Source: Kangiella aquimarina DSM 16071 (GTDB lineage Bacteria > Pseudomonadota > Gammaproteobacteria > Enterobacterales > Kangiellaceae). From it: a stretch of 64,000 nucleotides of DNA. The translations under genes were made by a program, and so were the position numbers. The stretch spans positions 800,862-864,861 of the forward strand of contig NZ_KB893650.1 of assembly GCF_000374105.1 (NCBI RefSeq). The letters run 5' to 3'. The notes below the pieces were generated by a model. It saw nothing but the letters and a program-made list of their open reading frames with translations, did no database searches and had not been told where the DNA came from. This document shows, in pieces, positions 24,348-37,088 of this stretch (positions are counted from its first letter, which is position 1; each line of letters starts with the position of its first letter).

Positions 24348-24742
24348 TACGACCTCCTAAATCCATTTAAGGCAAATCAGTATACATAATGCACAAATGC
24401 ATCGCAAATTAGCGGTTTGGAGATTCGAGGGTTTGGAGAGTACTAGAAAAAGACGTCAATGAGTCCTAGGAAAAACACTGCTTAGTACCAGGTTCTGTCT
24501 GACATGTTTTTATGTAAACATAGTTTGGCATCATATTAGTTCAGAACAAATTTGCTCGATTCCTGATCGTTACTTCAAGGCTCCGTTTATTCAGCATGGT
24601 AATAGTGGTTACTTTAAAGTGGAGCTGGAAAATCTTCCAAAGGTGGTTATTTGCAAAACAAGCATTCACTGATTAGTATGACTTGAATAATACGAAGAAA
24701 TATAGCCTGACAGGCTTTATGGATAATTATTCAGGACACAAC
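24348..24742. other. Intergenic region between two secreted-protein genes
   Basis: 395 bases holding the divergent promoters. No clear -35/-10 pair or hairpin is seen. Bases about 24462-24672 on the plus strand are open in one frame for about 70 codons ending in TGA, with protein-like composition (for example YFKAPFIQHGNSGYFKVELE) but no good start or ribosome site. This could be a gene remnant; it could also be chance. Confidence 0.4.
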
Positions 24743-26320
24743 ATGAAAACTAAATACCTTCTAGCTCTTCTTCTGGCTTTGCCATTCTACGCACACGCGA
24801 CCTCCGTCATTTATTCTGAGGAATTGCAGTTCGACAGTTGCAGTACACCCAAAGAGGTTCCTATTGTTTACTGTAAAAAAGACGAAGAAACAGCGATCAT
24901 TCAGATTGATGAAAGAAGTAAACTAATAGGCATTGTCCTTGGTAACATTTCTCCAAAACCATTTTCTGTTAAGCCCTTATCAGAAGATGGCACAACAAAA
25001 TATTTCAATGTCCTCAGTGAGAAAATCTATGAAGATGTTGACGTTCCTGAATATGAGACGCCCATAACAATATTAAAGAGCCTAGTAGAGCAGACTAATA
25101 GTCTCAGCAAGAATATTGTTTCCGCAAAGCAATACCAGCCTGAGATAGTCAGTGAACTGACTGCATTAAAAGAGCTGCTTGTTGATAATGCTCGAAAATT
25201 CGGGGGGGAGGTTGCCGGGCCAAGGGAACCTATGTTTTTGCTCTCGAAGGGAAAGGGTTATCAAGAATGCGAAGAACTGACACCCGGCACCTGTCCTTTT
25301 ATGTCCTGTGGTGACAACCATTATCTTTTATTTGATCGCGATAAAAAGCTCTTCCTGCCTATAAGCTACACTCGAAACAGTAAGGGAGAAGCAAAATTCA
25401 CTAAAAATGACCCGGAGGCCATGAAGGTTTGGGGTTTGAATACAACTTTTATACGTTATAACGAGGAGTTTAAGCATTCTCGTCTTACTAATGCACGCAA
25501 GGTTCCTGAAAATCTACAGAATAATGTCACCGCCTACTTCACTTTTCAGGATCCAGACTTCAGCGAATATCTTAAGGACATCATTCCACAGTGCCCATCA
25601 AGCTTCAAAGATGACATCATCTCTCTGGGCGTTCAGACTAATGAAGAGCGCTCAGCAATAGCGTATGTTCACCTGGTTGAGAAAGTAAACGGTAATATCA
25701 CCAGCCAGTACATAAACAAGGCATTCCTACCGGTCGGCATTCGTCTCAATAGGAATTCATATTTCACCCACGAAGCCTTGAAAGAAATGTCCAAATTTGA
25801 ACCGGGATCCGTTAAGGCTATATCTGCAAACAAGGCTAAAACGCTTTTCATGAAAGCTAAAGCAATGAAAAATATGGCTTGGTCACAACCTCAAGATGGT
25901 GCATTTGCACGTACTGAGCTAATGGTGGATATGTTTGAAAAGGAGGGCGTCATCGCTGATAAGGCTTGGGCTTCCGGTTACCTCAAAAGTAAAATAAATA
26001 AAAATCCATGGACTTATCATGTTGCACCTATCGTCTATGTTAAAGGAAACAATGGAAACGTTGATGAAATGATCATTGATCCTCTTATCGCTGATCAGCC
26101 AGTAACAATCGCTCAATGGTTGTCATTAATGGGCATTACTAACCCAGATACCGTATATAGTGTCGGATTTCCCGTGTCGTTAGATGCCAAAGATGTAGGA
26201 ATGATTTCATTTGCTATCACCAATCGTGACGCATTCCACCCGATAGTTGTAAAGAGTATGTCCAAAGAAGAACGAATTAAAGAAGCCCACAGAGTACTGG
26301 CTAACCTGGAGAAAGGGTAA
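24743..26320 (+). CDS. Secreted protein-glutaminase-like protein lacking the catalytic Cys
   Basis: 525 residues from the ATG at 24743, which has AGGACA upstream and opens a clean signal peptide (MKTKYLLALLLALPFYAHA); the frame also extends 20 codons further back. Residues about 300-500 match the pattern of secreted protein-glutaminase (protein deamidase of the Chryseobacterium type): DGAFARTELM at 385-394, WTYHVAPIV around His426, and IIDPLIADQPVT around Asp446, then an xWLxxM block. In the known enzyme the first motif is DGCYAR with the nucleophile Cys; here the position is Ala387. The His-Asp spacing of 20 agrees with the known triad. The N-terminal 280 residues, with four or more Cys, are unrecognised and may be a pro-domain. 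It is a single gene, followed by chaB. Confidence 0.7.
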   Translation: MKTKYLLALLLALPFYAHATSVIYSEELQFDSCSTPKEVPIVYCKKDEETAIIQIDERSKLIGIVLGNISPKPFSVKPLSEDGTTKYFNVLSEKIYEDVDVPEYETPITILKSLVEQTNSLSKNIVSAKQYQPEIVSELTALKELLVDNARKFGGEVAGPREPMFLLSKGKGYQECEELTPGTCPFMSCGDNHYLLFDRDKKLFLPISYTRNSKGEAKFTKNDPEAMKVWGLNTTFIRYNEEFKHSRLTNARKVPENLQNNVTAYFTFQDPDFSEYLKDIIPQCPSSFKDDIISLGVQTNEERSAIAYVHLVEKVNGNITSQYINKAFLPVGIRLNRNSYFTHEALKEMSKFEPGSVKAISANKAKTLFMKAKAMKNMAWSQPQDGAFARTELMVDMFEKEGVIADKAWASGYLKSKINKNPWTYHVAPIVYVKGNNGNVDEMIIDPLIADQPVTIAQWLSLMGITNPDTVYSVGFPVSLDAKDVGMISFAITNRDAFHPIVVKSMSKEERIKEAHRVLANLEKG

Positions 26321-26451: not shown

Positions 26452-26682
26452 ATGCCTTACCAATCGAATGACGAACTACCCGATAGCGTCCGGAATAACC
26501 TGCCCAAGCATGCCCAGGAGATTTACCGAAAAGCCTTTAACTCTGCTTGGGAAGAATACAAGAACCCCGAGGATCGCAGGGGGGACGACAGCCGCGAAGA
26601 AGTTGCCCACAAAGTCGCCTGGTCAGCCGTGAAGAAAGAGTATCATAAGGAAGATGGGAAATGGGTAAGGGATGAATATTAA
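26452..26682 (+). CDS. chaB: ChaB-family protein
   Basis: 76 residues. Seen: PYQSNDELPDSVRNNLPKHA at the start, then EIYRKAFNSAWEEYKNP, REEVAHKVAWSAVKKEY and a final GKWVR. This is the full ChaB family pattern (LPxxVrxxLPxhAQeIyxxAFNsAwexY). Known: ChaB was named as a regulator of the ChaA cation antiporter in E. coli, but most family members have no tested role. AAAAGGAG lies 7 bases before the ATG. No chaA or chaC gene is near; it stands alone beside the end of the integron cassette pair, convergent with it. Its transcript has no visible terminator before the attC site. Confidence 0.92.
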   Translation: MPYQSNDELPDSVRNNLPKHAQEIYRKAFNSAWEEYKNPEDRRGDDSREEVAHKVAWSAVKKEYHKEDGKWVRDEY

Positions 26683-26701: not shown

Positions 26702-26773
26702 TATTAACGCCGCCAGCAGGGGCAGACAAAACGCTCAGCGGTTTGGCTGTCCCTCTGGCTGGCTTTGTTATGG
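26702..26773 (-). other. attC site A of an integron gene cassette
   Basis: Read on the minus strand: R'' box CCATAAC, then AAAGCCAGCC and AGAGGGACAG, a central loop containing CCAAACCGCTGAGCGTTTTG, then CTGCCCCTGCTGGCGG and R' box GTTAATA. The arms GCCAGC/GCTGGC and AGGG-CAG/CTG-CCCT pair with unpaired extra bases on one arm, as attC sites do. The TAA stop of the 242-residue cassette gene overlaps the AAC of R''. R'' is the exact reverse complement of the cassette's first seven bases (GTTATGG at 27524-27518). Confidence 0.85.
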
Positions 26774-27523
26774 CTGTTTCTCAAGGATCTGGCAGTATTT
26801 AACAGGTTCCTTTAGCTGAATATAGTATGTGTCATCTTCAGATATCGGCTCTACCGTACAAGCTTGAAAGTGTATCCGATATTCCCTTTCTGGCGCATAA
26901 AGGCTAGGCTTTTGAGACCACCTCATGCGATCTAATCTGTTTTTATTGGGCTTAGTGGGGTAGTGTTCAAATTTGTCGTAGTTGACCTTTGCTGATTCCA
27001 AGCAAGGTGGATTTACCTTTAGCTTCTCGTCGAGTTGTATGGCGATTGCCAAATCCTTTAGTAAAAGGACTGGACAATCTAGCTTTACAATATAGGAGCC
27101 AAATTTATACAACTCAGGATCAGGCTTACCATTTTTTGGCAGGGAAAAACAATATATGAAATGGGACTTTTCAAATGTGGCAGCATGAATATTTTCAGTG
27201 CCGGGGACTGAAATCAATTGTTTATTTTCTAAATCAACAACTATGGATTCGCCTGGAGCAGCGACCTCACCATACCCTTCTGTTCGATCTATTCTTTCAG
27301 AATCTTCAATAGATTTGTAGTACTCAAGAGTCTGGAATCTTATTCTCCCAGAACAGAACTCTTCCGCGTATTCTCTTTTTGAAAATGCTCGATACAAAGG
27401 TACAGGGATATTCCCATAGATATAAAGCCGATGCCGATGCTTCCATACATCAAAAAAGCTTTGCCTCATACGTTTTCCCTTCGACCGCTTACTCATTACT
27501 AGGTCTTACTCCTCTGGCCATAA
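26708..27523 (-). mobile_element. Integron gene cassette 2 (242-residue ORF plus attC A)
   Basis: About 816 bases on the minus strand, bounded by the G/TT recombination points of attC B (27524/27523) and attC A (26708/26707). It carries one gene in the usual cassette orientation, with a short 5' lead and the stop codon inside attC. The seven-base match between its 5' end and its own R'' box is expected only if the unit once existed as a circle. Confidence 0.82.
26768..27496 (-). CDS. Cassette-borne hypothetical protein, DUF2971-like
   Basis: 242 residues, basic N-terminus (MSKRSKGKRMRQSFFDVWKHRHR), no signal peptide or membrane helix. Residues 33-75 (PLYRAFSKREYAEEFCSG, then IRFQTLEYYKSIED and RTEGYGE) resemble the opening of DUF2971-type proteins, which are common in mobile DNA and defence islands; the rest (EREYRIHFQACTVEP near 205) fits their C-terminal half. 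Function unknown. It is the gene of integron cassette 2: the start lies 28 bases inside the cassette, with GAGGAG about 12 bases before the ATG, and the stop overlaps attC A. Assignment to DUF2971 is by pattern only. Confidence 0.75.
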   Translation of the reverse strand: MSKRSKGKRMRQSFFDVWKHRHRLYIYGNIPVPLYRAFSKREYAEEFCSGRIRFQTLEYYKSIEDSERIDRTEGYGEVAAPGESIVVDLENKQLISVPGTENIHAATFEKSHFIYCFSLPKNGKPDPELYKFGSYIVKLDCPVLLLKDLAIAIQLDEKLKVNPPCLESAKVNYDKFEHYPTKPNKNRLDRMRWSQKPSLYAPEREYRIHFQACTVEPISEDDTYYIQLKEPVKYCQILEKQP

Positions 27524-27611
27524 CGCCCGGCTCACCGGGTAAATTTTTGATGGCGGCCTTAGGCACAAAGGGTGACAGCGGAAATTTATCCGGTGCAGCC
27601 GCTTGTTAAGG
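27518..27611 (-). other. attC site B of an integron gene cassette
   Basis: 94 bases on the minus strand: R'' CCTTAAC, then AAGCGGCTGCACCGGATAAA, a central loop, then AAATTTACCCGGTGAGCCGG and GC before R' GTTATGG. The arms align as GCGGCTGCACCGGATAAATTT against the reverse complement of the right arm with a single bulged G, which is the classic attC asymmetry. R'' is the exact reverse complement of GTTAAGG at 27995-27989, the start of its own cassette. Confidence 0.9.
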
Positions 27612-27994
27612 TTTCTACTGACGGAACAATGGCAGACATAAAATGATCGCGAGCGAACATATTCCAAAAAGGAATGTAAGCGCACCAGCCCATGACAGAG
27701 CTTTGGCCTTCCTATACGCATGGCGCTTGCTCAAAAAACTTCCCGCGAATAGCCAAATCCCTGCTCCCATATAGATAGTACTTAGCACTCTTGCCTCTGT
27801 GCCATAGAAGGTAACCAATGTTCCAATTGGTGGGTTACCCCTACCAATTAACGTACAACTGGCTTGAATGAGTGCGTACGCTCCATACGCAAACAAAGCG
27901 CCCGCCAGAATAAGGCCAAGAAATATCATTTGTACTTTTTCATATCTCGGCCGGAATTCCATATCAATGCTCATTTCTGGGGTCTTCACCTTAA
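27524..27994 (-). mobile_element. Integron gene cassette 1 (124-residue ORF plus attC B)
   Basis: About 471 bases on the minus strand from the G/TTAAGG point at 27995/27994 to the G of attC B R' at 27524. It holds one small gene whose stop lies 3 bases before R''. There is no attC before it, so 27995 marks either a former attI or a genomic insertion point. No integrase gene lies between here and the tRNA gene. Confidence 0.82.
27615..27989 (-). CDS. Cassette-borne small membrane protein
   Basis: Up to 124 residues with three hydrophobic segments (about 21-46, 68-87 and 96-119). The frame opens with GTG at 27989, right at the cassette edge; ATG at 27974 or 27962 would give 119 or 115 residues. 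No start has a good ribosome site, which is common in cassettes where the first gene relies on upstream sequence. No family recognised; small membrane proteins are frequent cassette cargo. Stop TAG at 27615-27617, three bases before the attC B R'' box. Function unknown. Confidence 0.7.
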   Translation of the reverse strand: MKTPEMSIDMEFRPRYEKVQMIFLGLILAGALFAYGAYALIQASCTLIGRGNPPIGTLVTFYGTEARVLSTIYMGAGIWLFAGSFLSKRHAYRKAKALSWAGALTFLFGICSLAIILCLPLFRQ

Positions 27995-27995
27995 C

Positions 27996-28407
27996 ATTAT
28001 ATTACCGGACATCACCGATAACCTATTGATTTAAAATAATTTATTTTTAATGTCCGTTTTTACGGCTAATACCATATAAAACCGGACATTCCTGTTCTGG
28101 TATCTCTTTTTATATTAAGTTTACAGACACCATGGTCAACGACCTACAGACCTTATAGTAATTAGCTCTTTTGTAATTGCAATGCTTTTTAGTATGCAGC
28201 TAAACCCGACAAACAGGACAAGAAGTTTCTGGTTTAACTTTTTACGGCTTGTTCGAAATTATCTGTGTTCAAATAAGTTCTGCTAACAAACCTAGAAGGG
28301 GCGTCTGTATTGTTTAAGTAAAAGGGTTTAGCGGGTACGAAAACAAGTTTTACTGATTCTGGTATTGAGTAAATGTGAGAGAGGGGGTAAAGAATTTTGA
28401 GGAAAAA
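27996..28407. other. AT-rich non-coding region between the cassettes and the tRNA gene
   Basis: About 410 bases without a credible gene. It contains ACCGGACAT twice in direct order (28004-28012, 28081-28089) and once inverted (ATGTCCG at 28050-28056), between the first cassette and the tRNA. If the cassettes sit in a former attI, these could be integrase or operator sites; otherwise they are unexplained. No intI-like frame is present on either strand. Confidence 0.5.
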
Positions 28408-28484
28408 TGGTGGGCCTTCCCAGACTTGAACTGGGGACCTACCGATTATGAGTCGGGTGCTCTAACCAACTGAGCTAAAGGCCC
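28408..28484 (-). tRNA. tRNA with CAU anticodon, probably tRNA-Ile2
   Basis: 77 bases with encoded CCA. On the minus strand: acceptor GGGCCTT/AAGGCCC, D arm AGCTCAGTTGGTTAGAGC, anticodon arm CCGACTCATAATCGG with CAT as the anticodon, T arm CCCAG-TTCAAGT-CTGGG. CAU is read by elongator Met, initiator Met and Ile2 (with lysidine). The initiator is excluded because the first acceptor pair is matched. The anticodon arm GACTCATAATCG and the TTCAAGTC T loop resemble E. coli Ile2 more than Met, so Ile2 is preferred. It follows rpoD on the same strand. Confidence 0.9.
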
Positions 28485-36771: not shown

Positions 36772-37088
36772 TTGGACCCTCCTGGTCGGTTACCTATATT
36801 GAAGAAGTTGCAAAATTTACTATAACTGTCAGGATTTTTTACATCTCTGTGATGTCTATAATATACCTGTCAGAATTTTTTACAACTAATTCCATCCATA
36901 AAATGTAAAAAAGTTTGACACTTTTTCCGAAGTGCTTTTTATGCACGTTATAGAGTTGATTGATATTTAACCATATAAGCATCGATTTATTGTGAATATC
37001 AAATGAACTTTGCTGATCAAATGTAAAATTTGCTGGTGTAAGCTGAGAATTGGCGGGTTTCAGGAGTGATTATTGCAAAATCAATGAG
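36772..37088. other. Intergenic region upstream of the S41 peptidase gene
   Basis: 317 bases between the S41 start and the end of the Bcr/CflA gene, both on the minus strand. It contains the triple 17-base motif described separately and otherwise AT-rich sequence. No terminator for the upstream bcr-like gene was recognised. Confidence 0.5.
36827..36920. promoter_or_regulatory. Three copies of a 17-base motif, TGTCArrnTTTTTTACA
   Basis: TGTCAGGATTTTTTACA at 36827-36843, TGTCAGAATTTTTTACA at 36868-36884 and, inverted, TGTAAAAAAGTTTGACA at 36904-36920. The two direct copies are 41 bases apart (about four helical turns) and the third 36 bases further. The nearest start codon is that of the S41 peptidase, 56 bases away on the minus strand. 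The regularity suggests binding sites of one regulator. Confidence 0.65.

Follow-up and report, generated by a model that had tools for sequence, protein, structure and literature searches.

Two gene cassettes at an attI site without a full integrase gene in Kangiella aquimarina, and related attI copies across the genus

Integrons are usually described as one integrase, one attI site and one array of gene cassettes, and integrase-less arrays as decayed remains of such systems. The DNA analysed here, a 64-kb window of the chromosome of Kangiella aquimarina DSM 16071 (genome G000, C1:800862-864861), carries two cassettes next to a tRNA gene without a full integrase gene nearby. What is the site at which these cassettes lie, and by which enzyme could they have been placed there? 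An earlier note, made from the letters alone, had read the two units as a small orphan array or as an insertion at some genomic site. As described below, integron cassettes with attC sites in one orientation and no full intI nearby were indeed found, while the rest of that description proved too weak.

Two cassettes and their attC sites

A covariance model of attC (R2) was trained on 18 other Kangiella attC sites, with the two sites of the window excluded. It was built from the joined ends, because an alignment of full-length attC sites made with MAFFT without the window sites (A3) was misaligned. R2 matched both sites on the minus strand exactly where the earlier note had placed them, attC B at 27518-27611 with 38.4 bits (E=4.5e-7) and attC A at 26702-26773 with 34.3 bits (E=4.6e-6), so that a covariance-model check of the kind proposed there turned out significant for the two sites. 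No third attC was found by R2 over the whole 64 kb up to E=5. When R2 was run on the window with the Infernal filters off, both full-length attC sites were missed, which may be due to a window-length limit. A scan by stem alignment gave the two sites scores of 15.3 and 14.4 and detected one extra stem in the window (36820-36919, score 11.6), and the same scan found 0 stems after one mononucleotide shuffle of the window. It was used in place of a fold-based attC scan, which recovered neither site of the window. A plain R''/R' consensus pattern was useless, giving 78 forward matches in the own genome versus 136 in the reversed control. At the gathering threshold of Rfam, the tRNA was the sole match in the window. 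In an alignment of 20 attC sites including the two of the window, stem pairs are formed in 88.9% of the cells. The covariation score of this set, most of whose sites had been preselected by the stem and junction tests, is 0.628 versus a shuffled mean of 0.146, and 0 of 500 shuffles scored as high. The arms are clearer in attC B, and the model alignment shows attC A to be non-standard at two positions.

Cassette 1 (27524-27994, minus strand) lies between the attI crossover and the R' box of attC B, and cassette 2 (26708-27523, minus strand) between the R' boxes of attC B and attC A. At the start of cassette 1 lies GTTAAGG (27995-27989), the exact reverse complement of its R'' box CCTTAAC (27611-27605), and at that of cassette 2 GTTATGG (27524-27518), the exact reverse complement of its R'' box CCATAAC (26773-26767). 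Inspection of the letters thus bore out both of the seven-of-seven matches that had been reported. Each unit has one gene in cassette orientation, also as reported: a 124-aa ORF in cassette 1 (27615-27989, minus strand, with a GTG start and an ATG at 27972), whose stop codon lies just 5' of R'', and a 242-aa ORF in cassette 2 (26768-27496, minus strand), whose stop codon lies within R''. The neighbouring tRNA gene is a tRNA-Met(cat) at 28408-28484 on the minus strand, found by ARAGORN and Rfam in the flank on the rpoD side. The far-side flank has a ChaB gene at 26452-26682 on the plus strand (Pfam ChaB, 1.7e-25). Next to ChaB, 24683-26320 encodes a protein of 545 aa with a glutaminase domain (Gln_deamidase_2).

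The 242-aa protein belongs to phrog_13198 (E=3.2e-37), a family of unknown function. It has no match in Pfam, PADLOC or NCBIfam, no confirmed relative in viral contigs and none in plasmids. The 124-aa protein gave sub-threshold family matches only. Out of 25 first-cassette ORFs picked, ten were scanned against PADLOC, with a match for two, and a partly overlapping set of ten against Pfam, with a family for four. At a solo attI elsewhere in the own genome (G000:C1:1592k), a lone cassette of ~2.6 kb encodes an 866-aa AAA protein (L037:3977-6577) that matches the phage-defence candidate PDC-S06 of PADLOC (E=2e-120). In genome G013, one solo attI has a small multidrug resistance family transporter as its first cassette (L041:5382-5699).

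An attI and an integrase remnant at the insertion point

The own genome (2.68 Mb in 3 contigs) has one integron integrase above the family cut-off in a whole-genome search (C1:342508-343455, 400 bits). Its intact ORF of 321 aa lies 485 kb from the window platform, and no full intI was found within the window by the same search. It has its own array of about five cassettes as counted by eye, of which R2 detects one attC clearly and two weakly. At C1:331-335k (L038), six small genes in the same orientation directly follow a truncated upstream half of attI, and R2 found no attC in this row.

It was found that positions 27906-28318 of the window align with the bases upstream of the own intact intI. 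The attI core (27992-28093, minus strand) ends at the crossover G/TT, with the G at 27995, and is 93% identical, across 100 bases, to the cis attI of the own genome. The junction between attI and cassette, GTTAAGG at 27989-27995 on the minus strand, is the exact reverse complement of the R'' box of attC B. Model R1 of attI gives this copy 100.9 bits, the copy being one of the training rows of R1. Upstream lies a promoter-like block with a candidate Pc, TTGCAA..TACTATAA (28151-28182, minus strand), which would read into the cassettes. The promoter-like segment is 89% identical to the own cis intI locus, and the block is kept in copies of the same upstream class. A generic promoter scan did not rise above shuffles, and the promoter activity of the block is putative. 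Farther upstream, a decayed 5' end of intI (28225-28320, plus strand) can be aligned to the start of the intact gene, with 59% identity over ~100 bases. Against the sequences of intI loci, the attI core reaches 92-93% and the remnant 53-60%. No match to the attI region was found in plasmid and phage collections. Like a complete integron, the window has an attI matching the cis attI and attC-bounded cassettes in one orientation, while of an intI in cis it has the ~100-base remnant alone.

The statement of the earlier note that no intI lies in the window therefore holds for the full gene and overlooked this decayed start; an orphan array or an insertion at a genomic site is too weak a description, since the cassettes lie at an attI that is accompanied by its upstream block and a remnant of intI. 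The search of the rest of the genome that the note suggested led to the distant intact intI with its own array, and the platform in the window is one of many in the genus.

Is the same platform present in related genomes? I compared 19 rpoD loci of the genus, taking ~1.5 kb beyond the match, and found an attI region beside tRNA-Met only in G000 and G013. The intI remnants of the two genomes are 96% alike. Their homology extends over ~3.5 kb, breaks off 5-6 bases beyond the crossover G, and returns beyond the cassettes at the 3' end of the ChaB flank. The cassettes differ. The first cassette in G013 has a 76-aa ORF (L039:6281-6511), and no homology was found between its DNA and the cassettes of the window. 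Since the remnant is common to both genomes, intI was broken before their split and the cassettes changed later; the comparison is thus evidence of a cassette change after the loss of the intI in cis. The G013 platform, whose attC is a member of the R2 training set, passes the junction test described below only at stem 6.8. No intI over the cut-off was found in G013. At the place of its relatives' intI locus, homology to the adjoining gene, presumably comM/yifB-like, stops 367 bases from the junction, and only short pieces of intI are left. In another genome, G011, a repeat (85%) of the 3'-terminal 40 bases of tRNA-Met follows downstream of the intact gene (L090:1371-1410), which could be a trace of the integration of an element.

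A family of attI copies and their differing cassettes

An exact attI pattern was found in 7 stretches among 84,980 species genomes, all in Kangiella records; this absence outside Kangiella is weak evidence, because a slightly stricter pattern fits only 13 of 35 known copies. The attI sequence model gave 88 matches (E<=0.01) in all 20 Kangiella genomes, with at most 10 per genome; 150 candidates per genome were scored, and the weakest of the 88 may be chance matches. They include 28 training copies. An intI above the cut-off is present in nine of the 20 genomes, the 11 without it including some drafts. I examined 78 of the copies; 8 were not fetched, and in two (L136 and L139) the match falls short of the junction. 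An intact intI adjoins seven of the 78, the only such copies among the 88. Of the remaining 71, four are found at an intI locus or beside a truncated intI, which leaves 67 solo copies.

The copies were tested for a cassette whose R'' box exactly matches the junction. With a stem score of at least 8, such a match was found in 29/78, 25/71 and 22/67 copies, and in 21 of 2016 controls, in which mismatched junctions were tried on the same sequences. With a stem of at least 6, the counts were 37/78, 32/71 and 29/67, and 70 of 2016 for the controls. The test was failed by 45 of the 67 solo copies at the stricter and by 38 at the looser setting, some failures (L045, L055 and L119) coming from too little sequence. 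In an earlier, smaller test (score >=12), 8 of 35 copies passed versus 0 of 461 controls. A tblastn search with intI proteins found no match at the other solo loci; short remnants may be unseen there, because this search also missed the remnant of the window itself. One locus (L059, G014:C33) has tandem attI copies 1.66 kb apart with a promoter-like block in each.

Grouping of the platforms by their flanks gave 13 clusters without an intI locus and 41 cross-genome pairs, in which G014:C33 was entered as two copies. By nucleotide BLAST, the first cassettes are different in all 41 pairs. The alignment reaches the junction in 23 pairs, ending 2-8 bases past it in 19 and 11-22 bases past it in 4. 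The other 18 have no alignment to the junction, and in 9 of the 41 one flank is without homology. Several cassette sequences recur at other places. A unit of 435 bp leads the cassettes at one solo attI in G003; in G005 and G002, solo platforms have it again (76%), following an attC-type R'. The intI array of G011 and a solo attI of G014 have 1106 bp in common (91.5%), starting at the junction, an example weakened by the lack of a recognised attC at the other end of the stretch. The cassette regions of L124 (G005:1043k) and L118 (G002:C10), from two species, have 696 bp in common at 97% identity, pointing to recent exchange.

The nine intact intI genes have several types of attI ending. Among 22 non-cis attI copies in genomes with an intI, 10 have the cis attI of their own genome as the nearest of the nine cis attI sites, ties included. 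The remaining 12 are nearer to the attI of another lineage; thus, some solo copies may be relics. A solo attI of G010 (814k) is 93% like its own cis attI, and in two relatives the platforms orthologous to it come closest to other types. At one place, the G015 copy is of this genome's own type (80%, a tie with the G016 type) and the copies of four relatives are of another type, the orthology of this place resting on the upstream flank only. Copies like the cis attI of G015 occur in 5 of the 20 genomes, and copies like that of G017 in 14. The mixture of attI types may be a record of integrase replacement together with some tracking of the current enzyme.

Similar integrase-less sites also occur outside Kangiella, in at least one further genus of the family. 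In G021, a member of such a genus, three attI-like copies lie apart from the intI. One of them has the exact expected R'' (TCTTAAC) ~330 bases on, with an attC of only 14.7 bits; no match was found between the copy at C12 and its first attC. At L172 of the same genome, two attI-like copies lie 2.4 kb apart. With the same query on nine other genomes, one short match each beyond the source was found in G023 (the query source), G027 and G035.

Proposed service in trans and its alternatives

Judging from sequence comparison, the window probably contains a second integron platform, whose own integrase has been lost and which would be served in trans by the distant IntI. The platform would consist of the attI, the upstream promoter-like block and the decayed intI start, now with two cassettes. 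Acting in trans from 485 kb away, the intact integrase would recombine attC with attI at the G/TT of 27995 and so insert and exchange cassettes, the first of which would be driven by a promoter on the attI side, and the platform would be a member of a dispersed family of integrase-less attI sites across Kangiella. The sequences show the attC and attI sites, the remnant, the likeness to the cis attI and the different cassettes at orthologous platforms, and from there I infer the trans action, the promoter function and the origin of new attI copies. The presence of different cassettes at the same sites in related species suggests that many sites may be served by a single enzyme. Eleven of the 20 genomes, G013 included, are without an intI over the cut-off; therefore, the sites there may be frozen.

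It is rather unlikely, though the most serious of the alternatives, that the platform is a fossil, a full second integron which received its cassettes through its own integrase and then lost intI, without any action in trans. The remnant at the platform and the lack of a full intI in 11 of the 20 genomes fit such a history, and short remnants at other solo sites may have escaped the search. However, the loss behind the common remnant predates the split of G000 and G013, yet their cassettes differ, and the first cassettes differ in every orthologous pair. Moreover, the attI core has stayed at 92-93% to intI-locus sequences while the remnant has fallen to 53-60%. Arrival of the cassettes by homologous exchange of flanking DNA between strains is improbable. 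It could account for near-identical DNA in cassette regions across species, as in the 696 bp of G002 and G005, but it does not predict the breakpoint 2-8 bases past the crossover that was seen in 19 of the 23 junction-reaching pairs, and the agreement of R'' with the junction in 25 of 71 copies also argues against it. Least probable is that IntI put the cassettes into an arbitrary genomic site of attG type. The use of attG sites by IntI1 has been reported (PMC12901181, citing Loot 2024), but such a site should be unlike attI, and the insertion point here resembles the own cis attI at 93% over 100 bases and has the upstream block and the intI start beside it; this candidate was rejected. A MITE-like mobile repeat was also considered; the copies end at the crossover and many lie at orthologous places.

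How does the probable trans-served platform relate to known systems? With two attC sites, ordered cassettes and no adjacent full intI, the window array is a CALIN in the sense of IntegronFinder; it differs by its attI, its promoter-like block and the remnant of intI. Single-cassette platforms would be left out of this class, because the default of IntegronFinder 2, as far as described in the part consulted, requires at least 2 attC sites (PMC9024848). In the accessible part of its description, the CALIN of the Shewanella prophage M16-3, which lies beside a complete integron, is likewise an integrase-less array and begins with the attI type of that integron, but it concerns one prophage, with no genus-wide set of such platforms described (PMC9892861). 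The Xanthomonas CALINs occupy seven distinct, relatively conserved chromosomal loci without an integrase, for which attI is not mentioned in the sections available (PMC12444791). According to the portion seen of another paper, the delta-attI cassettes of mobile integrons carry attI-type sites used by IntI1; there the site is part of the cassette, while in Kangiella the attI is a fixed platform upstream (PMC12901181). The attG insertions treated in the same portion resemble the window in having cassettes away from intI and differ in that the Kangiella site is attI-like (PMC12901181). No recognised description of genus-wide integrase-less attI platforms was found in the literature searched, most subscription journals lying outside it.

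In Kangiella, integrase-less attI sites are numerous, many of them have orthologous positions, and different species hold different cassettes in them. The genus also provides natural sets of attI sites of several types for testing recognition by IntI. If the service in trans is true, a part of the CALINs and of the ignored single attC sites would be functioning platforms, and such a bacterium would not be limited by the gradient of expression along a long array. The chances seem evenly balanced that the Kangiellaceae have a distributed integron, in which one integrase would serve many fixed promoter-attI ports spread over the chromosome and many "first" cassettes would be expressed at once, with no queue behind a single promoter. 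The ports would outlast the loss or replacement of the integrase, and the set of attI types in a genome would record its past integrases.
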